DNA from: Desulfuromonas sp. SDB | GTDB lineage: Bacteria > SDB-A | Direction: 5' to 3' | NCBI GenBank assembly: GCA_001412365.1 | Contig: LKUE01000209.1 | Location: forward strand, 1 to 53,284 | Length of the DNA stretch: 53,284 nucleotides | Shown: positions 29,239 to 45,670 of the stretch, piece by piece | How positions within the stretch are numbered: position 1 is the first letter of the stretch | How the letters are laid out: the number at the start of each line of letters is the position of its first letter | Made by a program: the position numbers and the translations under genes | The notes under the pieces: model-generated | Told to the model about the DNA's origin: nothing | Seen by the model: the letters and a program-made list of their open reading frames with translations, nothing else | Database searches by the model: none

Positions 29239-29424
29239 CTACTCTTCTTTAACTTCGATGCAGCTTACCGGGCAGTTGTTTTGACATTCCAGACAACCGG
29301 TACAGGCATCGGGATTAGCAACTTTTGCCGTATCTTCAATTTCAAAGACGTTTGGATCAGCTGGACATACATCTTGACAAACTCCGCAGGCAATACAATC
29401 AGATTCATTTACATAAGGTCTCAT
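29239..29424 (-). CDS. 2[4Fe-4S] bacterial-type ferredoxin
   Basis: The real start is one of two adjacent ATGs at 29427 and 29424, right after AAAGGAGG. The product is 61 residues (from 29424). Upstream in-frame sequence is hydrophobic and lacks a start signal, so it is leader. Two cluster motifs are complete: CIACGVCQDVCP near residues 10-21 and CTGCLECQNNCP near 40-51. This is the classic clostridial-type arrangement of two [4Fe-4S] clusters. The protein carries low-potential electrons in the cytosol. It is monocistronic, with its own terminator, and divergent from the giant TPR gene. Confidence 0.95.
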   Translation of the reverse strand: MRPYVNESDCIACGVCQDVCPADPNVFEIEDTAKVANPDACTGCLECQNNCPVSCIEVKEE

Positions 29425-29574
29425 CATACCTCCTTTATCAAACTCAATTAAATATCTAGTTAAAATTATAAATGGAATATTAATTCCAATTGCCAAAATT
29501 ATATAGATTTGCTTTAAACCGGGCAACAATTATTTAGTTTGTTTTTATAAAAATTAAAAAGTTAACGTTATTTC

Positions 29575-29602
29575 TTGATAAAAATCATAGATAAAGTAAA
29601 AT
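29575..29602 (+). promoter_or_regulatory. Candidate promoter of the giant TPR gene, very close to its start
   Basis: TTGATA (29575-29580) and TAAAAT (29597-29602) have a 16-base spacer. The -10 box ends only 9 bases before the ATG at 29612, and no Shine-Dalgarno site is present. Transcription would begin at or next to the start codon. Confidence 0.4.
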
Positions 29603-29611
29603 AAATTTATC

Positions 29612-32600
29612 ATGTTTGAATTCATTTTAGGAAAAGATGTCAAAAAGATTATAGAAAAAGCGCATGAGCTGGAAAATTCCGGTGAAGAAAAGAAAGCTTT
29701 ATCCTTGCTGGAAAAAGAAGCTAAAAACAAGGAAGAATACAGCTTATACCTGGAATTGGGCAGACTTCAGGCAAAAATGAATCTCGGGGCAGCAGCCCAG
29801 AGAAATCTTTCCAATGCTCATATGCTTGCTCCTGAAAACATCGACAATACTTTAGAAAGAGCTGAAGACGGGTATTTTCTGGGAGGAAGAGATCCTGAAG
29901 TAGCTGTATTTTTAGGGGAAACACATTTAGAACAGGGGAATGTCGAAAAAGCAATTGAGTACTTTCAGGAGATACCTAAAGAAAATCTGGAGAAAGAGAT
30001 AAAAACCAAACAATCCCATCTGAAAAACTTCCCTCCGGATACTGCAAATAAAGCCAAAAGATTGAATTTATGTCAGTCCATTGCAGTAATAACTGTGTTC
30101 ATAGACCAGGAATCTGCCATCCCCCTGCTGGAAAACTTATATCAGGAATTTCCCCAAACCAAGGAACTGATAGATAACACCCTGGGTTGGATGTCCAGAA
30201 ATGACTACCGTACCCCCTTCCCCCACATTCATTACGGAAGTTTCCTAACTAAGACCGATCAGCCCGAGAAAGCCATAGATTTTTTCAATAAAGCAATAAA
30301 TATTGACCGTAAATCAACCGAGAAAATAATTGCCATTCTTGAACAAAGAAAATCACACAGTCCGGAAATGGTTGATTTCCTGTTTAAACTTTACACCCTC
30401 ACCAACCAACCTGAACAAGCATTGGAATTAATTCAGAATGCTGATCTTCCTTCTGAAAAAGTAGCCAGATATTACCGGGAAATTATCAAAGGGGACAAAA
30501 AGAACCTGGAGGCTAGAAAAAATTACACTGAAAATTTACTCAAGGGAAAAAAATACTCAGAAGCTGCCCTGGAATTAGATTTTTTCAGTGATCAGCAGAA
30601 TTATTTTCCCTGGGTTCAGGAAAAAATTGATCAGATACTGGTTGAACCCAATGATAAGGCATTGTTCATCGGGGCAGAGATAAATATAAAACAGGATAAT
30701 TTAGAAAAAGCCATTGATTATCTAAATAGTTTATTGTCCAATTATCCTTCTTCCACTGAATCTATTGAAATGCTGGTATTGGATATTGTAAAAAACAATC
30801 CTGATTTTCATCCTGCTCTAATTTTATTGATAAAAGTTCTGATTGAAAAGCGGGAACAAATTTTATGCTTAATGCTATTCGAATATATGATTTTTTCAGG
30901 TTTTTCCCCTTTAATTGATGCAGCTAAACAGCTATTCAAAGAGTATGGAAAAAATCTGAAGGCAGACTTCCAATGGCTGACTGTTAGCTACATGATATCC
31001 CTTATCTCCGGTTCAGAAACCAGATCAAAGATAATCAATCAGATGGTGGAAAAGTTTCCTGACCAATTAGATGAGTTCATAGTTAAAATAGATTTGCTTT
31101 CCGACATTTATAAAGAGGTTATTCCCGCAGTAAACCAGGATATCATGTTCTTATTAGCGAAACATCCCAGTGAGGTTTGTTACGTGACCACGATTTTTTC
31201 TTCAATAAAAGTAAATTCACCCCAGGAAGCAATTAAAATCCTTCAGGAATACAAAAGCCAATTCCCCAGTAACAAATTCTCCCGAAAATTATTGTCTGAC
31301 ATAACCCAACATTTTCCTGATGATCCCGAGGTTCTTAAAACCAATATTATTGACAATCTCAAACAGAAGAAAATAAATTCTTCTCTGGAATATTTAAGAA
31401 CATTAATCAATTATCCTAAACAGGATACCTGGGTAATTGAGTTATTTAAGCGATTAAATAAATCCTACCCCAAGAACTATCAGGTACATTTTACCTACTT
31501 AGAGTTTTTACTTAAGAGGAAACTATACTCGAAATTGATTACAGAAGTAGATAAAGCAATGGAAGTTGTACCTTCCCAGGACAAATCCTACCTTCACTAC
31601 ATTAAAGGACAAGCACTTCTTGAAAATGATAAATTTGAAGAAGGCATCATCTGTCTAGCCAACAGTATTGAAACTTCTTCTCAGTACGCCCAGCAAGTTA
31701 TTGATTCTCTTTTAAAAGCAGAAGAATTTTACGATCATCCCAAGATAAAATATGTTTTGATAAAAGCTTATGCTAAGAAAAAAGAATACCAGCAGGCAGC
31801 AATAAATTTATTTTCTCTAAAAGACCATCCCAAAATCAAAAAAAGCAGGATAATTAGTGAATTTAAAGTTTTATTAAAAGATGCCCCTACTGATTCCTAT
31901 TTAAGATTTTATCTTGGAAAAATTCTCAACATAACCGGATCTATAGATGAAGCGGTAACTGAATTTCAATTAGCGGCAACTTACAACCAAGAATTAGCTG
32001 AACCAGCTTTCCAGGAAGTACAGCAAATATCCAAACAAATCCACTCGCCGGAAGTACTTCAGGCAATGGGTATATTAGCAGAACATTGTAAAAGATATGA
32101 TGTATTCTATAAAACTTTTTCAAGCTTATTCAAGCAGAAAGCCAACCAAAAAAAACTACTGCACTATATAACTGAAAAAATAGAGCAAAATCCCCAGCAA
32201 GCTATTTACAAAATTATTTTTTCAAAATTTCAGATCCTCACCGGTAACCCCGACCAGGGTTTGACTACTGCATTGAGTATAGGCGATTTAGACAATCTGG
32301 AACATCCAAGCTACGCAAATTTAATTTCAGAACTTATTGAAAAATATCCTGAAAATCCTGAATTATGGATAAGACAGGGCAAAATTCAAATGATCTCCGT
32401 TCAACCTGAACAGGGAATAAATTCCTACCTAAATGCATTTAAACTTAATCCCGATTTCAGCGACCAAATACTGGATGATTTAAAAAACATCGAAGACTTA
32501 AGCGCATCATTTCTAGCTATCCGCATTCACCTGAAGAAAAATAATTTCGATCAAGCTAAGCAGATTCTAGAAGAACATATTGAAAAATTTTCAGAAGATC

Positions 32601-33409
32601 ATATTCAAACCTTAACCGATGACATCATCAAAGCACCCCTTAATGAAGATTCACTCAGTTTGTATATTTTGCTGGTTGATCTTCTATACAAACTGGATAA
32701 ATATGAAGAAGTAATAAAAATTGTAAAGAACATTGAAAAATATCCATTTGAACCGGCATTAAGAGAAAAAATATATTCAAATATGATTCACGCAGCAGTA
32801 AAAATAGACAAAAACATCGCCGCTGAATATTTGGCTAAATTTAAAATTCTAGTTGGTCATCAAAAATTTATCCAATGGATCCTGGAACAAAGAGAAAATC
32901 AAATAAAACAATTATCAGTAAAATTTACTGAAAGCCAATCTGATCCGTTGATCTATTATAATTTAGCAGTTAAATTTATTGAAATGAATTATCTTGACCA
33001 AGCCGATCAAATCCTCACAAAAATTTTAAAAAACAATCTAACTTCTGAACAATTTGATCAAGAAAAGATCTGGTTTGAAAAATGCAGAATTAAAGTTTTG
33101 CAAAGGAACTACCACCAGGCATATTTTTTAATTAAGCAAAGAATGGATTATAATATTAAAAATGATCACTGGAGCAGTAAATACTTTAAACTACTGTTAA
33201 ATTTACAGATGGCGACATCTGATTACCGGGGAGCTCTCTCCACCTATAAAGTCGCATTTTCCCATCTGTCCCCAAAAGAACAGAACATCTATTATGATAT
33301 TGTATCCAGGGCATTTGGAGATAATGCTCTGATGATTATTAATAAAAAGCAGTCAGTTAATAAATTAATTAACCAAAACCTTATTAAAAACATCATGGAA
33401 AGCTTATGA
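29612..33409 (+). CDS. Giant cytosolic tetratricopeptide-repeat protein
   Basis: The 1265-residue protein has no signal peptide or membrane segment. It is built of helical pairs over its whole length. Clear TPR-like units include KALSLLEKEAKNKEEYSLYL (near 28), EKAIEYFQEIPKEN (near 112), EKAIDFFNKAINIDRKS (near 222) and the later EQGINSYLNAFKLNPDFSD (near 930). Many other units are degenerate, so it is probably a long superhelical scaffold that binds peptides or proteins. No catalytic domain is visible. Its stop overlaps the start of the next giant gene by 4 bases (ATGA), so the two products are probably made together. A candidate promoter lies immediately before the ATG. I cannot assign a function. 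Confidence 0.85.
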   Translation: MFEFILGKDVKKIIEKAHELENSGEEKKALSLLEKEAKNKEEYSLYLELGRLQAKMNLGAAAQRNLSNAHMLAPENIDNTLERAEDGYFLGGRDPEVAVFLGETHLEQGNVEKAIEYFQEIPKENLEKEIKTKQSHLKNFPPDTANKAKRLNLCQSIAVITVFIDQESAIPLLENLYQEFPQTKELIDNTLGWMSRNDYRTPFPHIHYGSFLTKTDQPEKAIDFFNKAINIDRKSTEKIIAILEQRKSHSPEMVDFLFKLYTLTNQPEQALELIQNADLPSEKVARYYREIIKGDKKNLEARKNYTENLLKGKKYSEAALELDFFSDQQNYFPWVQEKIDQILVEPNDKALFIGAEINIKQDNLEKAIDYLNSLLSNYPSSTESIEMLVLDIVKNNPDFHPALILLIKVLIEKREQILCLMLFEYMIFSGFSPLIDAAKQLFKEYGKNLKADFQWLTVSYMISLISGSETRSKIINQMVEKFPDQLDEFIVKIDLLSDIYKEVIPAVNQDIMFLLAKHPSEVCYVTTIFSSIKVNSPQEAIKILQEYKSQFPSNKFSRKLLSDITQHFPDDPEVLKTNIIDNLKQKKINSSLEYLRTLINYPKQDTWVIELFKRLNKSYPKNYQVHFTYLEFLLKRKLYSKLITEVDKAMEVVPSQDKSYLHYIKGQALLENDKFEEGIICLANSIETSSQYAQQVIDSLLKAEEFYDHPKIKYVLIKAYAKKKEYQQAAINLFSLKDHPKIKKSRIISEFKVLLKDAPTDSYLRFYLGKILNITGSIDEAVTEFQLAATYNQELAEPAFQEVQQISKQIHSPEVLQAMGILAEHCKRYDVFYKTFSSLFKQKANQKKLLHYITEKIEQNPQQAIYKIIFSKFQILTGNPDQGLTTALSIGDLDNLEHPSYANLISELIEKYPENPELWIRQGKIQMISVQPEQGINSYLNAFKLNPDFSDQILDDLKNIEDLSASFLAIRIHLKKNNFDQAKQILEEHIEKFSEDHIQTLTDDIIKAPLNEDSLSLYILLVDLLYKLDKYEEVIKIVKNIEKYPFEPALREKIYSNMIHAAVKIDKNIAAEYLAKFKILVGHQKFIQWILEQRENQIKQLSVKFTESQSDPLIYYNLAVKFIEMNYLDQADQILTKILKNNLTSEQFDQEKIWFEKCRIKVLQRNYHQAYFLIKQRMDYNIKNDHWSSKYFKLLLNLQMATSDYRGALSTYKVAFSHLSPKEQNIYYDIVSRAFGDNALMIINKKQSVNKLINQNLIKNIMESL

Positions 33410-36400
33410 AAAAATGTCCATTAAATGAATCAATAGAAGTTTCAGAAGTAAACGGGAAAATTTCCTGCAACCAAGATTGTCTGTTCTTTGACCCAGAGCA
33501 AAAGAAGTGCAAACTGTTGGAGTTTATAAGTGGAAATAAATTAATCGAGCAGCTTGAATCAGTAAAACAAGGAATCAGTAATATTTCCGATCCAGTGGTA
33601 ACCAGCTTTCAGAAAAACAATGAAAATCTCTCCACCCTCATGGAAACATTAGACAGGTTAAATGAAAAATTCAATTCCATCTACAGCTTATTGGAAAATT
33701 TTTCCGATCAGAAATCACAGATAGACCTGGAACATCGAAATCAAATCCAGGAGTATCTGGGTAATTTAAAAGATCAGATAAATTCCTGGTCGGGGGGATT
33801 AAACGATTTAAGAGATAATCTGGTGGAGATAAATGCAAAATTACAAAATGATGAAATCATAACCTTTCTAAAAAATCAACATCAGGATCAATTAAAAACT
33901 TTAATTGAAAACCACCAACAAAATCTGTCTGAACAATTTTCCACTTCAGTTAATTCAGTGGTTTCAGGACTGGAAAATCTTTCAGTAAAATTAAATGGAA
34001 TCGAAGATAAATTTCAGCATCAAGAAATTGTGAATCAGATCAAAACCAGCACTGATTCAATGCAACAGTATTTTGACCAATTCATTAACAATATTAATAC
34101 CGCCAGTTCCCAGCAGCAGCAGCAAATTATTGATCAAACCAGTGAGTTTTTTAACCAGGTGAATTTATCTCTAAATGATATTAAACAACAACTTTCGGAT
34201 CAAAGTTTAAACGATTTGCTAAAACAACAACAGCTTCAGTATCAACAAAACCAACAGGAATTAACTTCTAGTTTATCAACATTAATCAGTGAAAATCAGT
34301 CTAATTATCAACAGCAACTGGAAAATTTAATTGATCAACTGAAATCGCCGTTATCCCTTATTGACCACAGTATTCATGAAATCAATTCAAAACCTCAATT
34401 AGATGAACTGAAATCGCAGCTTCAACAAAATCATTTGCAGAATCAGCAGTTAGCTGAAGATTTTCTAGGCCGTTTGAAAAATATCGGAGAACAAAATAAT
34501 CAAATAATCACTGATCAGATAAATTCCCAACTTCAATTAATTAGCCAAACCATTAATAGTATACCGTTGAAACTAGACGAGTTAACCCAGCATCAAAATT
34601 TCGACCAAATCATTGAACTGCTGAGAACCCAACAACAAGTTGATCAACAAAAAGTGGATGAATTGTCCAATCATCTCATTCAATCACTATCTCAAAATCG
34701 CCAAATACTTGTGGATAAATTATCTGAATACTTTGAAGGTTCTTTTAATATTTTAGAGAAAATTCCTTCAGCTCTCACTGATTTGCAAAACAATTTCGCC
34801 AATCTTAATTTAGAACAAGCAATAAATACTCAAGTTCAACAAGTCAGCTCTCAGATGAAATTAATCTGGTCTGAATTTCAGCAGATTCAATCCGAACATC
34901 ATCAAAATTTAGTGGATAATATTGGGACCAGTTTAAAATTCACCGTGGATAAATTAACCAGCATCAATCAGCTGCTTACTGATATTCAGCAAGACCCCAA
35001 ATTCAGTAAATTTGTAGGCGTTTTTCAGGAATTTCAATCTGATCAGTCATTTCAGTTCCAACAACTTTATACTACTTTAAATCAGATATCAGAGGAAATT
35101 GAAAATACTAACCGCACTCTGGTTAACCAGGATATTAAACAAATTCTATTGGAGAATTTAGATAAAAATCAGCAATTTCTTCAATCTCAATCTGAACTTC
35201 AGAAAAAAGTTAATGAAGAATATTTTCTTCAAATTAATAAGCTGTACACCTCCCTGACCAACATACACCCGAAACTAGCCAATATTGAAGATATTTTAGA
35301 GAAATTGAATTTAACCGGGCTTTTCCAGCAATTTTTAACTAACTCCGCCAGCCAAAACCAAACTTTCATTGAACAATTTAAATCCGATCAAACTGCTTTA
35401 GTTGAAAACTTAAATAATAACCTCCAACAGAATTTTGGTTTGTTGGAGAATTCAATTAAACAAAATTTGGAAAGCATATTAGTGCAGATTCCTGAAAAGA
35501 TTGAACAAATCAATGAGATTTTAATTCAGGATAAATTATTTAGTTTATTAAATCAGAATTTTCAGCAGCAATCACAACAGATCAGTATTCTAGGTGAAAA
35601 TTTAAGAAATCTCCATTCACAAAATTATCAAACTATTACTAAAAATATTGAACTGATTAATGAAAATTTAAACACACTATCCGGACAGTTAGTCAGTTCT
35701 ATCCAAAATATTGAAAACAACACCGAACAACGGGAGTTGCTTGAATATCTTCAACAAAAAGAAGTAAAAGATCGAGATTACTCTGAAGCGATGATGAAGA
35801 TAATTAACGAAAGTTCACTCAGGGCCAGCGAAGATTTAAATGAAAAATTCAATCATCTGGTTCAAAATTTATATCCATCAGTAAAAATGACCGCTTCCGG
35901 CATTTTGGACATTAAAAAAGAGTTTTCAGATAATTTTATACCCACCCTGCTAGACCATCGGAAACAAGACCGGAAATTTCTCAAAGAAGCACTCTCCCGC
36001 TGGACTTCCGCTTATATTCATGAACAGCAGCAACTTTACAGTCATCTGGAAAACTTAACTGAAAAGATGAATTCACTGGCAAATTCTTTTCAATCATTGC
36101 AATCAGAACAACTAATTGCAGCAATATCAGAGACAAGCGAGAAAAATGCTGAGTTTATCAGAACTATGTTTACAGATTGGATAAATAGCTTTAACTCTAC
36201 TCAACAAAATATAAGTGATTTACAGCAGCAGTCTCTTCAAGCCGGCAATGTCCTCAACGACAAAATAACCGAACAAGTTCAAGCAATTCAGGATTCAAAT
36301 ATAAAAACCTTAAACTTTTTATCTGAAGTGACTGACAAAATTAATTCTGCATTTGAGAACATTGAAAAGTTAGCTGAAATCCAAAGTGAAACTGACCACC

Positions 36401-36975
36401 GTATCTCTCAATTAACCGAAAAAATGGAAAAGCTTACAGAATTTCAAACAGAGAGTATCGCTAAAGAACAGGAAAGAATGGAATTTATTGAGCAGGACCG
36501 AAAAATTTCTCAAGCTAAGATGCATAATGATAGAGGAGTTGGATTTTTCTATGCAAACCAAATTCAATCAGCATATCGGGAACTGCAAAAGGCAGTTCAG
36601 CTTGCCCCGGAGATGTATGAAACTTACTTAAATTTAGGAGTAGTTTTATCTGAAATGAATGAGGTGGAAAAAGCTAAAGAGCATTTCAAGAAAGTAATTG
36701 ATTTAAATCCCGAAATAACTGAGGCATACTTGAATTTGGGTATGCTGGAGATACATGATAAAAACTTGGAAGATGCGGAAAAACTAATTAATCAAGCTCT
36801 GAAAATCTCCCCGCAGTATTCAAGGTCCTATGAAGTACTGGGAGATGTATATCTTGAAAAAAATGAAGTACAGTTAGCTGAAGATGCTTATCAGAAAGCC
36901 CTTCAATTAAATCCCCTAAATCAGGAATTGAAGTTAAAACTAAAACAGTTAAGAGGTGAAGACATTGTCGAATGA
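33406..36975 (+). CDS. Giant glutamine-rich coiled-coil protein with N-terminal Cys cluster and C-terminal TPR domain
   Basis: I do not recognise this 1189-residue protein. It has no signal peptide. Cys4, Cys21, Cys25 and Cys35 form an N-terminal cluster (C-x16-C-x3-C-x9-C) that could bind zinc or an Fe-S cluster. From about residue 45 to 1050 it is predicted coiled coil, very rich in Gln and Asn. In that part, blocks of roughly 60-70 residues recur, each opening with a pattern like DQSLNDLLKQQQ, HQNFDQIIELLRTQQQ or QDKLFSLLNQNFQQQ. The last ~140 residues hold about four regular TPRs (AYRELQKAVQLAPEMYETYL, EKAKEHFKKVIDLNPEITEA and so on). It is translationally coupled to the giant TPR gene and is followed by a small proline-rich protein gene. 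It is probably a cytosolic scaffold or filament. Confidence 0.82.
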   Translation: MKKCPLNESIEVSEVNGKISCNQDCLFFDPEQKKCKLLEFISGNKLIEQLESVKQGISNISDPVVTSFQKNNENLSTLMETLDRLNEKFNSIYSLLENFSDQKSQIDLEHRNQIQEYLGNLKDQINSWSGGLNDLRDNLVEINAKLQNDEIITFLKNQHQDQLKTLIENHQQNLSEQFSTSVNSVVSGLENLSVKLNGIEDKFQHQEIVNQIKTSTDSMQQYFDQFINNINTASSQQQQQIIDQTSEFFNQVNLSLNDIKQQLSDQSLNDLLKQQQLQYQQNQQELTSSLSTLISENQSNYQQQLENLIDQLKSPLSLIDHSIHEINSKPQLDELKSQLQQNHLQNQQLAEDFLGRLKNIGEQNNQIITDQINSQLQLISQTINSIPLKLDELTQHQNFDQIIELLRTQQQVDQQKVDELSNHLIQSLSQNRQILVDKLSEYFEGSFNILEKIPSALTDLQNNFANLNLEQAINTQVQQVSSQMKLIWSEFQQIQSEHHQNLVDNIGTSLKFTVDKLTSINQLLTDIQQDPKFSKFVGVFQEFQSDQSFQFQQLYTTLNQISEEIENTNRTLVNQDIKQILLENLDKNQQFLQSQSELQKKVNEEYFLQINKLYTSLTNIHPKLANIEDILEKLNLTGLFQQFLTNSASQNQTFIEQFKSDQTALVENLNNNLQQNFGLLENSIKQNLESILVQIPEKIEQINEILIQDKLFSLLNQNFQQQSQQISILGENLRNLHSQNYQTITKNIELINENLNTLSGQLVSSIQNIENNTEQRELLEYLQQKEVKDRDYSEAMMKIINESSLRASEDLNEKFNHLVQNLYPSVKMTASGILDIKKEFSDNFIPTLLDHRKQDRKFLKEALSRWTSAYIHEQQQLYSHLENLTEKMNSLANSFQSLQSEQLIAAISETSEKNAEFIRTMFTDWINSFNSTQQNISDLQQQSLQAGNVLNDKITEQVQAIQDSNIKTLNFLSEVTDKINSAFENIEKLAEIQSETDHRISQLTEKMEKLTEFQTESIAKEQERMEFIEQDRKISQAKMHNDRGVGFFYANQIQSAYRELQKAVQLAPEMYETYLNLGVVLSEMNEVEKAKEHFKKVIDLNPEITEAYLNLGMLEIHDKNLEDAEKLINQALKISPQYSRSYEVLGDVYLEKNEVQLAEDAYQKALQLNPLNQELKLKLKQLRGEDIVE

Positions 36976-37255
36976 AATATATTTAAGTTTCTTAGATTCA
37001 TTGAAACAAAAAGCAAAACAATCAAATTTACAGGAATATTTTCCAAATAAAGTTAGCAATTTATTTCAATACCGGATACAAGATCAAGGTCCTGAAATTA
37101 TTTCAGAAACCACTTCCCAAACCCCTCCTCCCGTATCCTCTCCTGAAGAATCCTCCCCGTCTCCGCCCCCAGTTGAAAATGAACAGGGAGACCTATTTAA
37201 ATTTGCTGACGGAATTAGAGAATTGAAATTCGAGGATAAAGGAGAGGGGAGCTAA
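36965..37255 (+). CDS. Small protein with proline-rich segment, partner of the giant genes
   Basis: The product is about 96 residues from TTG 36965, with AGAGGTG six bases before it. GTG 36956 would add three residues. Either start lies inside the end of the coiled-coil gene, implying coupled translation. The first 35 residues form a charged helix (FLDSLKQKAKQSNLQEYF). Residues about 50-75 are rich in Pro and Ser (TPPPVSSPEESSPSPPP), suggesting a flexible linker. A short conserved-looking tail has DLFKFADGIRELKFEDK. No family is recognised and no signal peptide is present. It may be an adaptor for the two large proteins. Confidence 0.7.
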   Translation: MSNEIYLSFLDSLKQKAKQSNLQEYFPNKVSNLFQYRIQDQGPEIISETTSQTPPPVSSPEESSPSPPPVENEQGDLFKFADGIRELKFEDKGEGS

Positions 37256-37279
37256 CCAGCTTTAAACTTTCTCTTAATC

Positions 37280-38080
37280 ATGACTAAATGGGCAAAAATG
37301 GATATTAAAACCGAATTGGAAATAAAAAAAATGGAAAAAGCTGGAGAACTTTTAGCCAGTATTTTAAGCGAACTTTGCACTCTCTGTGTCCCCGGAATTT
37401 CTACTAAACAGCTAGATGAAATTGCTGAAAATTTAGTTTTAGACAACAATGCACTACCCACCTTCAAAGGATACCATGGATATCCTGCTACAATATGTTC
37501 GTCAGTTAATGATGTAATTATTCATGGAATTCCCACTTCCGCTAAATTAAAATCAGGAGATATTTTAAGTATTGACATGGGATTGACTCTGGAAGGATGG
37601 ATTGCGGATTCAGCCCTGACCATTCCCATTGGAAAGGTCAGCGCCGAGGCGATGAAATTAATTGAAGTAACTCAAACTTCTTTATACCGTGGTCTTGAAT
37701 TAGCCAAACCAGGTTTCAGATTATTTGATATCAGCAGGGCAATACAGAATTATGTCGAAGATAATGGTTATTCAGTGGTGCGTGATTTTGTCGGTCATGG
37801 AGTGGGTAGAAATCTTCATGAAGATCCAAGTATCCCCAATTTCATCCCACCGCTAACTTCAATTTACCGCAATATTAAATTAAAACCGGGAATGACCCTG
37901 GCTATTGAACCCATGGTCAATCAGGGCACTCATGATGTGAAAATTATGAAGGACCGGTGGACAGTCAGAACAAGAGATAATAAATTATCTGCTCATTTTG
38001 AACACAGTATTGCCATCTGCAAAGATAAAACTGTAATTTTAACTCACCGCAAAGATGATAAAATTAACAGGGAATTGTGA
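37280..38080 (+). CDS. map: Methionine aminopeptidase, type I
   Basis: The 266-residue protein has the M24A pita-bread fold motifs. CSSVNDVIIHGIP is followed by LSIDMGLTLEGWIADSA with two metal-binding Asp residues, FVGHGVGRNLHEDPSIPN with a metal-binding His, AIEPMV with a Glu and FEHSIAI with the last Glu. It removes initiator Met from new proteins. No Shine-Dalgarno site precedes ATG 37280. An in-frame ATG at 37298 would shorten it by six residues. It lies 24 bases after the small proline-rich gene, so co-transcription is likely. Confidence 0.96.
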   Translation: MTKWAKMDIKTELEIKKMEKAGELLASILSELCTLCVPGISTKQLDEIAENLVLDNNALPTFKGYHGYPATICSSVNDVIIHGIPTSAKLKSGDILSIDMGLTLEGWIADSALTIPIGKVSAEAMKLIEVTQTSLYRGLELAKPGFRLFDISRAIQNYVEDNGYSVVRDFVGHGVGRNLHEDPSIPNFIPPLTSIYRNIKLKPGMTLAIEPMVNQGTHDVKIMKDRWTVRTRDNKLSAHFEHSIAICKDKTVILTHRKDDKINREL

Positions 38081-38121
38081 TAAATTTATAACATTAATTA
38101 ATTTTATATTAAGGAGAACCG

Positions 38122-39489
38122 ATGCAGGATAATTACTCACATGAAAAAAAACCAGCTTGGGAAAAAATGCAATCATCAGAAAGGGAAATTGCGGAGAAAT
38201 TCAGTCATAACTATATAAATTTCTTATCCCAGTGTAAGACGGAGAGAGAAGCGATACAATGGTTAAAATCTGATCTTAAAAATTCAGATCAATTCCATCT
38301 TAGTGAATTCAGTTCAAAAGCGGTGGCATTAACTAAGTTTGGAAAACTGCCTGTAGAAAAGGGAATAAATATTATTATTGCTCATGTTGATGCTCCTCGT
38401 TTAGATTTAAAACCGTCTCCCCTGGTGGAAGAATCGGAATTAGCATTTTTAAAAACACATTATTACGGTGGAATAAAAAAATATCACTGGTTAAACCGCC
38501 CCTTAGCCCTACATGGCTATATGATCCTTTCCGATGGAAAATCCCTCCAATTCACTATCGGTGAAAATGCCGATGATCCTGTTTTTACTATTGCTGATTT
38601 ACTGCCCCACCTCTCTAAAAATGTGCAGTCAGATAAAAAAATTTCTGAAGCTATTCCCGGAGAAAAACTCAATATCTTAGTTGGTTCATTAAAACTGGAA
38701 AGCAATGACAAGACCAAGGAAAATTCAGTAAAATTAGCAATTCTTAAATTGTTACATGAGAAATTTAATATTACTGAAGAGGATTTTATCTCTGCCGAAT
38801 TTGAGGTTGTCCCCGCCGGACCAGCCAGGGAAGTGGGATTGGATCGCTCCATGGTGGGAGGATATGGACAAGATGACCGAATATGCGCATGGTGTGCCTA
38901 CCAGGCATTGATGAATACATCTGAATTACAGAAAACTGCAATGGTGGTATGGATTGACAAGGAAGAAATCGGATCAGCAGGAAATACCGGTGCGGATTCT
39001 GTTCTTATTTCTGATGCCATTCTGCAAGTCCTTAAAAAATCAAATTCCCCGGTTAGTTATGACTTGTTGAGGACCACTATTCAAAATAGTTTCTGTATCT
39101 CTGCTGATGTTGCCTGTGCGGAGAATCCATTTAACCCAGAAGTTTTAGATAAAAATAATTCAGCAAAACTGGGATACGGTGTAACCATTGTCAAATACAC
39201 CGGAGTTAGAGGGAAATCCGGAGCTAACGACGCTCATGCTGAATTGATGGGAAAACTACGGCTAATTTTCAATTCCCAAAAGGTAGTATGGCAGAGTGGA
39301 GAACTGGGCAAAGTTGATGAAGGAGGCGGAGGAACCGTAGCCAAATACATTGCCCATTGGGGCATCCCCACCATTGACTGCGGAACTCCCGTTATTTCCA
39401 TGCATTCCCCTTTTGAAATTTCACACAAAGCAGATATCTATCAAACCGTAAAAGGATACCAAGCTTTTTTTGAACAGGAGGAAAATTGA
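38122..39489 (+). CDS. M18 family aspartyl aminopeptidase
   Basis: The 455-residue length suits family M18. The zinc ligands fall in IIIAHVDAPRLDLKP (His88), GGYGQDDR (Asp) and WIDKEEIGSAGNTGADS (the EE pair), with a late His in MHSPFEISHKAD. These cytosolic enzymes form large dodecamers and remove acidic or other N-terminal residues from peptides. AAGGAG lies 5 bases before the ATG. The gene follows map after 41 bases, and the DegT gene starts inside its last four bases, so peptide processing and the next genes share a transcript. Confidence 0.93.
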   Translation: MQDNYSHEKKPAWEKMQSSEREIAEKFSHNYINFLSQCKTEREAIQWLKSDLKNSDQFHLSEFSSKAVALTKFGKLPVEKGINIIIAHVDAPRLDLKPSPLVEESELAFLKTHYYGGIKKYHWLNRPLALHGYMILSDGKSLQFTIGENADDPVFTIADLLPHLSKNVQSDKKISEAIPGEKLNILVGSLKLESNDKTKENSVKLAILKLLHEKFNITEEDFISAEFEVVPAGPAREVGLDRSMVGGYGQDDRICAWCAYQALMNTSELQKTAMVVWIDKEEIGSAGNTGADSVLISDAILQVLKKSNSPVSYDLLRTTIQNSFCISADVACAENPFNPEVLDKNNSAKLGYGVTIVKYTGVRGKSGANDAHAELMGKLRLIFNSQKVVWQSGELGKVDEGGGGTVAKYIAHWGIPTIDCGTPVISMHSPFEISHKADIYQTVKGYQAFFEQEEN

Positions 39490-40721
39490 AACGATTAGCA
39501 ATTAACGGGAGTCAACCAATTAATACAAAATCATTCCCCGCTTGGCCCAGATATGATCAATCAGAGCAACAAGCTTTACTGAAAGTTTTACAAAGTGGTC
39601 AATGGGGAGCCACCAAAGGAAATGAAGTTAAAGAATTTGAACAACAATTTGCTGATTTTCATCAGGCTAAATTCGGAATAGCAACTACCAGCGGAACTAC
39701 TGCTTTATCCATAGCTTTACGTGCTTCAGGAATTGGACCGGGTGATGAAGTAATTTTACCGGGTTATACTTTTGTCGCTTCCGCTACTTCAATTTTAGAT
39801 GCCCTGGCTAAGCCTGTTTTTGTTGACATTGATTTAGATAGTTTTAATATTGATACCTCCAAGATTGAAGCATCCATCACCAAACAGACCAAGGCTATTA
39901 TGCCGGTGCATTTTGGGGGGAGACCGGCAGATATGGATAAAATAAATATGCTGGCACAAAAATATAATTTAACAGTGATTGAAGATGCCTGCCAGGCATG
40001 GGGAAGCAAATTCAATGGCAAGTATTCAGGTTCTCTGGGAACTGCCGGTTGTTACAGTTTTCAATCCTCCAAAAATATTACCGCAGGGGAAGGAGGAATG
40101 ATATTAACTAACAATGAAAAAATAGCCGACCTTGCCCGAAGTATATCAAATTGCGGTAGAAATCCAGATGGTTTATGGTATGCTCATTATCTGTGGGGTG
40201 GTAATTATAGAATGACTGAATTTCAGGGAGCTCTTCTTCAAGTACAATTATCTAGATATACTGAACTTCATGAAAAAAGAGAACTTGCTGCAGACTACCT
40301 TGATCAAGCTATCCGGCAGTTAGAAGGATATAATACCTTATCCCCCATTCCTTCCTCATCAAGATCATCCTGGCATATTTTTGTGTTCAAGCTTGATCTG
40401 GAAAAATGGGATGGAATCGGTAAAAATAAAATCATTGAAGCAATCCGGGCGGAGGGAATACCGATTAGCCCAGGTTACTCCCTTCCCGTCTATCAACAAC
40501 CTTTGTTTAAAGTTAAAAATTTTGGGCTTGATCATGATTTTTCCCGGATATTTAATGATTTACCTGATTTTGAAAAATTCCACCTCCCCTGCACTGAACA
40601 GGCAGTATTCCACCAGGGATTATGGCTAACCCAAAATATCATGCTGGCTGAAAATCAACAGCTGGATGTACTAGTAGACGGTTTAGCTAAAGTTTACCAA
40701 TTCAGAGAAGAATTGAAATGA
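39486..40721 (+). CDS. DegT/DnrJ/EryC1/StrS family PLP aminotransferase
   Basis: The start is TTG at 39486, four bases after a GGAGG site and overlapping the stop of the previous gene. The 411-residue product has the family pattern: [43 protein letters not shown] and [16 protein letters not shown] with the PLP-binding Lys at 196. These enzymes aminate nucleotide-bound keto-sugars for surface glycans or antibiotics. No sugar dehydratase or epimerase is beside it. Its overlaps with the M18 gene and the HD-GYP gene on both sides suggest one transcript. The sugar substrate cannot be inferred. Confidence 0.94.
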
Positions 40722-41692
40722 CCTCAAGCAAACCACTGATATTATTGGTAGATGATGATGATTTGATTCTGGATACAATTAAAATGTCCTTAGCTGATCA
40801 ATGTTATCAATTTGTTACCGCTACCGACGGGAAAGAAGCACTGAAAATAGTTCAGCAGACCCCCCCCTCTTTAGTTATTACTGATGTTACTATGCCCATA
40901 ATGAATGGTCTGGACTTATGCAAATCAATAAAAGAAAATTATAATACCCGGTTAATACCAGTAATCGTGGTCACTGCTTTCGATGCTTTTGAGGATAAAA
41001 TCAAAGCAATTAAAGCCGGAGCTGACGAATTTTTGAGCAAGCCTTTTAATACTTTGGAACTGAAAGTAAGAATCAACGCCCTGCTCAGGTTTAAAGATCT
41101 GGTGGACCGGTTAGAGGACTTTTCCAAAGTTCTGTCAGCTTTAGCCAGAGCTATTGATGCCCGGGATCATTATACTCAGGGACATTGTACCAGGGTTTCC
41201 TATCTAGCTAAAGAAATTGGCAAAGCAATGGATCTGGAACAAAATGTCATTGATGACCTGGGATTAGCCGGATTACTGCATGATATTGGAAAAATTGGAA
41301 TTCCTGAAAGCATACTGAACAAACCAGGCAAGCTGACTCATGAAGAAATGGATATCATGAAAACCCATCCGTTGATTGGAGAAAAAATTTTAAAACCTCT
41401 AAAAACTACGGAAACTTTTAGATCTATCATCCGTTCTCATCATGAAAGACTTGACGGCACAGGATATCCTGACGGTCACCGGGCAGAACAAATAGTAGTT
41501 CCAGTTAGAGTTATTGCGGTTGCCGATGTTTATGATGCCCTTAGATCAGATCGTCCCTACCGCAATAGCCTTGACTTAAACACCACTATGGATATTATCG
41601 AACAGGAAATTGAAAGAGGTTTTTGGGACCGAGATGTGTTCTCTGAGTTAAAGAAAGTGTCCGCCAGGGATACAGTAAAATTCATGCATTAA
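40718..41692 (+). CDS. Response regulator with HD-GYP c-di-GMP phosphodiesterase domain
   Basis: The 324-residue protein has a receiver domain (about 8-125) with the acidic DDDD start, phosphoacceptor Asp56 (VITDVTMP) and Lys108 (SKPF). The C-terminal HD-GYP domain has [22 protein letters not shown] (His188-Asp189) and [13 protein letters not shown] (241-253). This is the RpfG-type arrangement, which hydrolyses c-di-GMP after phosphorylation by a sensor kinase. No kinase is in the window. The start overlaps the DegT gene (ATGA). The stop overlaps the stop of the convergent lipoprotein gene by four bases. Confidence 0.95.
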
Positions 41693-44728: not shown

Positions 44729-45670
44729 TTATTCAACAACAATTAACTTACCACTGGTAACCTGACCATTGGCAGTTACTTTGTAGATATAGGTTCCCTG
44801 ATTGGCTTGGTCAAAGGTAAATGAACCTTCGCCCTGGAAAGAACCGCTGAACAGTTGATCAATCTGGCGTCCGGAAAGGTCAAAAACTTCCACGGTCAGA
44901 TCTACTCTGTCTGCAACTGATAAGCTGATAGTGGGGGTATTGTTGAAATCATTAACAGTTACTGAGTAAGCTGCTGGTCCTTCCACCTGCTCTTCCACAC
45001 CCAGTTCTGTTCCGATTAGGACAATACCGATTTCCAGAGGTTCTCCCCACTGGGTAACAGCAGATGTCCAGTTGGGAACACCCAAAACCTGTGATCTGAA
45101 ATAGAGAGGAGAACTGTTTCCGATTCCGGATTGACACTGCCAGCCAGTCTGTCCGTTGACGGTGAAAACAGTGGAAGGTTGAACTTCAATCCACCAAGTA
45201 CCTGCGGTGATGTTAAGGCTGTAGGAAGTCACATCCATGGTGAGGTTATATTTATCAGTGCCAATAGTAGTTGCTGTAAAATCAGCCGCTTCTACCACTA
45301 TTTCCACAGTGGGATTAACCTCGGGGGTTCCTGAATTGTCAGCATACAATAGTATATGTACGTTGGGAACATTAGCCCAGGTGGTAAATCCGTTCCAGTT
45401 TGACCACCAGGTAATCACTGTATCCACTTGCCAATCGGAAGTTGGGGAGATATCATCAGCAATATCTGCTTCAAAAGGATAAACACTGTCCAATTGGCAG
45501 GCGTATCCGTTAGCGGAAAGGGTATCCGGTACTTGCTGAAGTAGGACTGCCCGGTTGAGTTCGCCTACCGGCATTTGAGGCTGGCTGGTTCCAATGCTAT
45601 GTTCCATTAAAACCCCAGCATTTAAACTCACTGCCAGCATTGCAATTAACAACAACATCATAGTTTTCAT
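44729..45670 (-). CDS. Secreted protein with type IX secretion (Por) C-terminal sorting domain
   Basis: The 313-residue protein has a signal peptide (MKTMMLLLIAMLAVSLNA) and a middle jelly-roll-like domain rich in Thr, Trp and Val. The C-terminal sorting domain (about 240-313) begins near LTVEVFDLSGRQIDQLFSG and ends with GKLIVVE. It aligns with the same domain in the 891-residue protein at the left edge. No catalytic motif is seen. It should pass the inner membrane by Sec and the outer membrane by the type IX system, whose core genes are not in this window. AGGAG lies 5 bases before the ATG, with a near-consensus promoter upstream and a strong terminator downstream. This suggests a single, well-expressed transcript. 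Confidence 0.88.
   Translation of the reverse strand: MKTMMLLLIAMLAVSLNAGVLMEHSIGTSQPQMPVGELNRAVLLQQVPDTLSANGYACQLDSVYPFEADIADDISPTSDWQVDTVITWWSNWNGFTTWANVPNVHILLYADNSGTPEVNPTVEIVVEAADFTATTIGTDKYNLTMDVTSYSLNITAGTWWIEVQPSTVFTVNGQTGWQCQSGIGNSSPLYFRSQVLGVPNWTSAVTQWGEPLEIGIVLIGTELGVEEQVEGPAAYSVTVNDFNNTPTISLSVADRVDLTVEVFDLSGRQIDQLFSGSFQGEGSFTFDQANQGTYIYKVTANGQVTSGKLIVVE

Follow-up and report, generated by a model that had tools for sequence, protein, structure and literature searches.

A gene trio of at least six bacterial phyla encoding a giant TPR protein, a rod protein and a small acidic protein, probable parts of one large intracellular assembly

Positions 29,612 to 37,255 of contig LKUE01000209.1 from Desulfuromonas sp. 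SDB (assembly GCA_001412365.1; the whole stretch of 53,284 nucleotides is called the window below) carry three consecutive + strand genes, here named A, B and C, the first of which overlaps the second by the sequence ATGA. The question raised by this locus is whether the three products, two of them giants, belong to one system and, if so, of what kind. We found A and B together in 15 of the 386 genomes sampled, and found no genome with only one of them. On this and the other genetic evidence given below, the case for A-B-C as a functional unit is strong. The trio is an undescribed unit shared by at least six phyla, whose members are mostly uncultured bacteria, and its products are probably parts of one large intracellular assembly. 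Its features in the window are:

29612-33409, + strand: gene A, 1265 residues, predicted tetratricopeptide repeat (TPR) solenoid (list of open reading frames, TPR matches in Pfam, AF2 model, orthologues)
33406-36975, + strand: gene B, 1189 residues, with a four-Cys N-terminus, a rod of ~1000 residues and four C-terminal TPRs
33406-33520, + strand: N-terminal Cys motif of B, C4-P5 ... C21-x3-C25 ... C35 (alignments)
36508-36930, + strand: C-terminal TPR domain of B, residues 1035-1175
36965-37255, + strand: gene C, 96 residues, acidic and partly proline-rich, with a TTG start and an 11-nt overlap with B

An earlier note on this DNA, made from its letters alone, had described the locus, and the list of open reading frames confirmed its coordinates, the two lengths (1265 and 1189 residues) and the ATGA overlap. 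The third gene does begin within the end of the second, as the note had said, and its start could be refined: the reading frame of C is open already from GTG 36956, but translation most likely starts at TTG 36965, because the alignment with three relatives sets MSNEI of the window against their MPSNI. The absence of a catalytic domain was also borne out, as was that of a signal peptide in A and B. In addition, the three proteins and their relatives showed no clear membrane segment (Kyte-Doolittle 19-residue mean ≤1.84, this peak being reached only in A of the window, within its TPR region).

Occurrence and gene order

Three relatives of the same family were examined, all from one sister genus; one of them matches JAFGIG010000137.1, from candidate division WOR-3 (alignment scan; the only named relative). 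All four genomes of the family preserve the gene order A-B-C along with both overlaps, that of 11 nt between B and C being identical throughout. In each of the three sister genomes, A is followed by the ATGA-overlapping start of B, and the end of B lies on another contig, followed by C and the same downstream genes. The sister contigs (L039/L040, L003/L041 and L042/L043) end inside the rod of B at an identical position, SSLPSSV[GS]EIE; moreover, the two B contigs of genome G001 share exactly 87 nt and the contig of G002 is labelled k87, a k-mer size. Because of the shared position, the 87-nt overlap and this label, we infer that the three assemblies share a break point within B, and a separation of A from B in the sister genus was rejected. 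Near-identical repeats in the rod are a likely cause of the break, which suggests that repeats have been collapsed in these contigs and that they hide length variation of B.

Outside the family, single-sequence searches with A or B returned TPR noise only, and a single-sequence search of genome contigs with A gave no match. A profile built from the four A proteins detected two further A proteins of 1262-1295 residues in other phyla; both were then seen to be directly followed by a B with a Cys start and a TPR end, and one also by a C-like gene. The widened A profile led to A in further lineages, and a B profile search of the A-positive genomes yielded a B with the Cys motif in each, even where A is elsewhere in the genome. 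When the 386-genome sample was searched for B, with only a few candidates scored per genome as in the other profile searches, two more carriers appeared: G175, in which A and B are adjacent with a 4-nt overlap, and G243, in which B was found first and then an A of 1268 residues elsewhere in the genome. An A of ~1270 residues is thus accompanied by a Cys-rod-TPR B in all 15 positive genomes, a count that takes in G175, whose A start is cut by the contig start, and the three sister genomes, in which the middle of B is interrupted.

A and B are adjacent in five lineages: the WOR-3 family, G104, G254/G117/G381, the G361 phylum and G175. The phylum listings of the G104, G254, G361 and G107 groups are disjoint, none of them includes the family of the window, and G132, G106 and G175 also fall outside the four listed phyla; at least six phyla are therefore involved. 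A is carried by all four genomes of the window's family and by 1/1, 3/3, 4/8 and 2/2 genomes in the four listed phyla.

Such a distribution could also arise if the genes encoded commonplace TPR and coiled-coil proteins with no relation to one another, and the apparent family were a product of repeat convergence caught by TPR-biased profiles. TPR profiles match many proteins, many of the weaker matches were generic TPR proteins, and A orthologues share only ~15% identity between phyla (~35% between the window and the sister genus). However, matches to A proteins of ~1270-1280 residues outside the profile's own lineages scored 104-333 bits, compared with <50 bits for generic TPR proteins; the one later exception, an 827-residue A-like protein of G262 (122 bits), was set aside for its shortness and because a full B was not found in that genome. 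In addition, every B has the Cys motif, which is not part of the TPRs, and the adjacency of A and B recurs in the five lineages. We consider convergence a very unlikely explanation.

TPR and coiled-coil proteins occur in defence systems, and the patchy carriage in one phylum (4/8) would suit a defence or conflict system built around an unseen effector. PADLOC, however, gave nothing for A or C and only weak coil/TPR similarity for B (E 6e-5 or worse), and the trio encodes no nuclease, protease or NTPase. A is moreover present in all examined members of three multi-genome groups (4/4, 3/3 and 2/2), among housekeeping neighbours, and we hold this explanation to be highly improbable.

Features of the three proteins

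TPRs cover most of the length of A in the Pfam search (TPR_19, 86 bits for a gathering threshold of 25; TPR_14, 80 bits for a threshold of 23.5), which places A in the TPR superfamily. The AlphaFold (AF2) model of residues 1-1200, computed with one relative as input, is all-helical (~69 helices, mean pLDDT 73), and A is predicted to form a continuous TPR solenoid. Among 17 genomes, A measures 1244-1295 residues (mean 1267, standard deviation 14, coefficient of variation 1.1%). TPR proteins usually differ in repeat number, and a length kept within ~1% across at least six phyla is unusual for one of them; at so low an identity between phyla, this constancy suggests that the geometry of the superhelix matters from end to end.

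B is built differently. Its length in 15 genomes ranges from 387 to 1189 residues (mean 535, standard deviation 200), a coefficient of variation of 37% against the 1.1% of A; the rod accounts for 187-999 residues across the orthologues, and the Cys N-terminus and the TPR C-terminus are both kept. The N-terminus reads CP-x15-C-x3-C-x9-C in the window and CP[FLI]...C-x3-4-C...C in general. The four Cys are invariant in three alignments (A3, A8 and A14), the motif is present in all 15 B proteins tested, and it probably binds metal. At the other end, Pfam places TPR units at about 1035-1175 (TPR_2, 74 bits for a gathering threshold of 27, best stretch 1142-1172), so that the C-terminus belongs to the TPR superfamily. 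The rod of the window's B, ~1000 residues long, is strongly periodic in the manner of an amphipathic helix (z 16 at 3.65 residues) and has an internal repeat of 67 residues (autocorrelation z 8.4 at lag 67 and 6.7 at lag 134).

These properties of the rod bear on the possibility that B polymerises as a cytoskeletal fibre, as other rod-shaped coiled-coil proteins of bacteria do, with A and C as bundling, capping or cargo factors. The length of the amphipathic helix, the 67-residue repeat and a period close to that of hendecad coils (11/3) speak for a filament; yet rod length varies five-fold, a clear 67-residue repeat is confined to the window's lineage, and the constant partner is A, not the rod. 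A filament therefore appears unlikely to us.

The product of C has an isoelectric point of 4.5, a helical-looking start, a middle rich in P, S and E, and an acidic tail. This tail is conserved and follows the pattern D-[IL]-F-x-x-F-x-x-G-I-R-E-[IL]-x-F-E-D (DLFKFADGIRELKFED in the window). Four lineages have a C-like gene after B: the WOR-3 family, G104, G132/G269 and the G361 phylum, the last in four of its genomes. In G132 and G269 the acidic motif is repeated within C (KIGVGAREFNLDELS, KIGTGGRVFKLDDLS and similar). Profile comparison of the C tails of G132/G269 with that of G104 gave E 2e-6, a score reached by none of 60 shuffles, and supports their homology; the match between the tails of the WOR-3 family and G132/G269 was weak, though above all 60 shuffles, and is suggestive of homology. 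In the G361 phylum, C has an acidic FAELDDV-like motif at its end, an observation made by inspection. Homology of C across all lineages is thus only partly supported by profile comparison.

The composition that the earlier note had singled out, Gln-rich for B and proline-rich for C, is real in the window: B contains 13% Gln, and its rod 14%. Neither trait is kept even in the sister genus, where the rods contain 3-6% Gln, and both were rejected as signatures. The Cys tip of B, which the note had overlooked, is the conserved signature, together with the acidic tail of C, the latter seen in part of the lineages only.

A proposed assembly and its gene neighbourhood

In the mechanism that we propose, A would be a TPR superhelix of fixed length (~36 helix pairs) serving as a platform. 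B would oligomerise through its helical rod; one end would carry a Cys tip that probably binds metal, the other a receptor of four TPRs, and the variable length of the rod would set the reach of the assembly. C would act as a flexible adaptor, helical at its N-terminus, whose acidic tail may dock in a TPR groove, most likely that of B, much as acidic tail peptides do in TPR clamps; it would thereby link clients or regulate their recruitment. Translational coupling would match the amounts of the three proteins. We infer in this way a physical complex, a bound metal, oligomerisation of the rod, docking of the tail in a groove and a scaffold role. That the three proteins together make up one dedicated cytosolic scaffold is a reading which we hold with moderate confidence.

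Several observations weigh against it. The earlier note had proposed that conservation of the trio in the same order would support a system; A-B-C is indeed kept in three lineages (the WOR-3 family, G104 and the G361 phylum) and B-C in a fourth, but in three lineages (G132/G269, G107/G243 and G106) A is separated from B, and four, about half of the lineages, showed no C next to B. The C of the G361 phylum showed no profile match to the other C tails, and the structure model of B was poor (pLDDT 40) and was left out of the fold searches. TPR and coiled-coil proteins are common, and both the co-occurrence and the absences are limited by the sensitivity of the searches (profile A7 missed G243) and by the incompleteness of several genomes.

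The surroundings of the trio comprise two further features:

29575-29602, + strand: promoter-like site just upstream of A (10/12 matches)
37280-41692, + strand: genes for a methionine aminopeptidase, an M18-type aminopeptidase, a DegT-type aminotransferase and an HD-GYP response regulator, in the same order in the sister genus

Promoter-like sites are no commoner in the region than in shuffles. The genes at 29612-41692, starting with A and ending with that for the HD-GYP response regulator, form a single co-directional run with short gaps or overlaps; those downstream of C are probably neighbours and not part of the trio system. The genes around the trio in the window are those for PEPCK, PPi-PFK, an SLBB protein, the aminopeptidases and the HD-GYP protein; in the G254 phylum they are era, a Clp-type AAA+ gene, mltG and U32, and in the G361 phylum CarD is a neighbour (outside the window, names other than that of the Clp-type AAA+ gene were assigned by eye). 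In G132, A has a MoxR-type AAA+ gene beside it (L072, 11748-12731), and in G243 MoxR and a DUF58-like gene are found close to B (L112, 5776-7837). A constant enzyme neighbour was looked for across the lineages and none was found. As the neighbours change between phyla, the trio itself is the unit.

Some of these neighbours raise the possibility that the trio is a device for protein quality control, in which a TPR-binding tail and the TPR grooves would serve to collect substrates or peptidases, together with an AAA+ protein in some lineages. A Clp-type AAA+ gene (Clp_N, AAA_2) adjoins or overlaps the end of B in the G254 phylum (contigs L048, 3755-5935; L055, 2064-4256; L056, 10768-12948) and its product is a possible functional partner. 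Aminopeptidase genes follow C in the window, and M16-like peptidase genes, recognised by eye and not with a profile, are found near B-C or A-B-C in G132 (L077, 4341-5699), G269 (L080, 3378-6060) and G104 (L047, 1-2078). However, the peptidases differ from lineage to lineage, none being constant, they may be chance neighbours, and A, B and C contain no chaperone or protease domain. We take the AAA+ and peptidase genes as a lead towards a role in proteostasis and not as evidence for one, and regard the quality-control device as improbable.

Two observations on the window stand apart. A small ferredoxin-like open reading frame (29243-29428, - strand) lies between the SLBB gene and A, and the sister genus likewise has one ahead of A (L042, 4587-4853). 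Elsewhere, the proteins encoded at 67-2742 and 44729-45670 have C-terminal sorting domains of the type 9 secretion system (Por_Secre_tail, just under the Pfam cut-off), one of them together with lamin-tail domains, which suggests that the organism has this secretion system.

Comparison with known families and systems

A clear match of either giant to a characterised family would have spoken against a new system, as the earlier note had pointed out. None was seen above a curated equivalog cut-off: neither A nor B reached the NCBIfam equivalogs PilW, Tgl, MamA, LapB, BcsC or PrsT, the best scores being 68 bits for B against PilW (cut-off 154) and 59 bits for A against PrsT (cut-off 312). A search of PHROGs with the trio returned nothing useful, no curated family name was found for A, B or C, and a literature search of open-licence full texts found no description of such a trio. 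PilW/Tgl, LapB, BcsC, MamA and PrsT share with A and B TPR arrays of similar repeat sequence. PilW, Tgl, LapB and BcsC are, however, membrane- or envelope-bound, whereas A and B are free of signal peptides and clear membrane segments.

Long soluble coiled coils similar to B are found in PodJ and in crescentin-like rods; to our knowledge these have neither a Cys tip of the B type nor a co-encoded TPR partner of 1270 residues. PodJ is a bacterial polarity scaffold (PMC8980812). The constancy of A, joined to a B that varies in length and never loses its Cys tip, points to a defined bacterial multi-protein structure, apparently unnamed. It can be searched for by a TPR protein of ~1270 residues together with a rod-TPR protein that begins CP[FLI]...C-x3-4-C...C, and the carriers are listed here.

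For C, an analogy may be drawn with the TPR clamps of Hop and CHIP, which bind the EEVD of Hsp70 and Hsp90: its acidic-hydrophobic tail is conserved and co-encoded with two TPR proteins. Unlike EEVD, the motif of the window's C is not at the very C-terminus (GIRELKFED-KGEGS), and C is no chaperone.

The closest likenesses of A are eukaryotic. IFT139/TTC21B of IFT-A, Ski3/TTC37 and Ctr9 are, like A, TPR-only superhelices of the same size class (IFT139, 1316 residues). IFT139, Ski3 and Ctr9 were the best Foldseek matches of the A model (E 2e-12 to 1e-9), and IFT139 was the best natural protein for A in the PDB profile search (72 bits); VIA-align ranked OGT and designed TPRs first. Taken together, the solved structures that match A best are generic or designed TPRs, with these three proteins as the natural giants among them. 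With the Pfam family TT21 5th-ARM, the window's A scored 19.8 bits (cut-off 27.8), and the A proteins of G104 and G254 exceeded the cut-off. The TM-scores to IFT139, Ski3 and Ctr9 are nonetheless 0.10-0.14, identity is ~12%, and the sequences can be aligned only in local stretches; uncertain long-range curvature of the A model is probably responsible for the low scores. We read the likeness, as far as the model allows, as one of fold for the same kind of job, that of a platform, and not as kinship. A still wider proposal, which is tentative and doubtful as a whole, is that A, B and C would form an undescribed bacterial intracellular organising machine, made of an invariant TPR platform, an extensible metal-tipped rod and a motif-bearing adaptor, either ancestral in several uncultured phyla or exchanged among them, and working in the manner of the eukaryotic TPR trains and coats without shown kinship to them.

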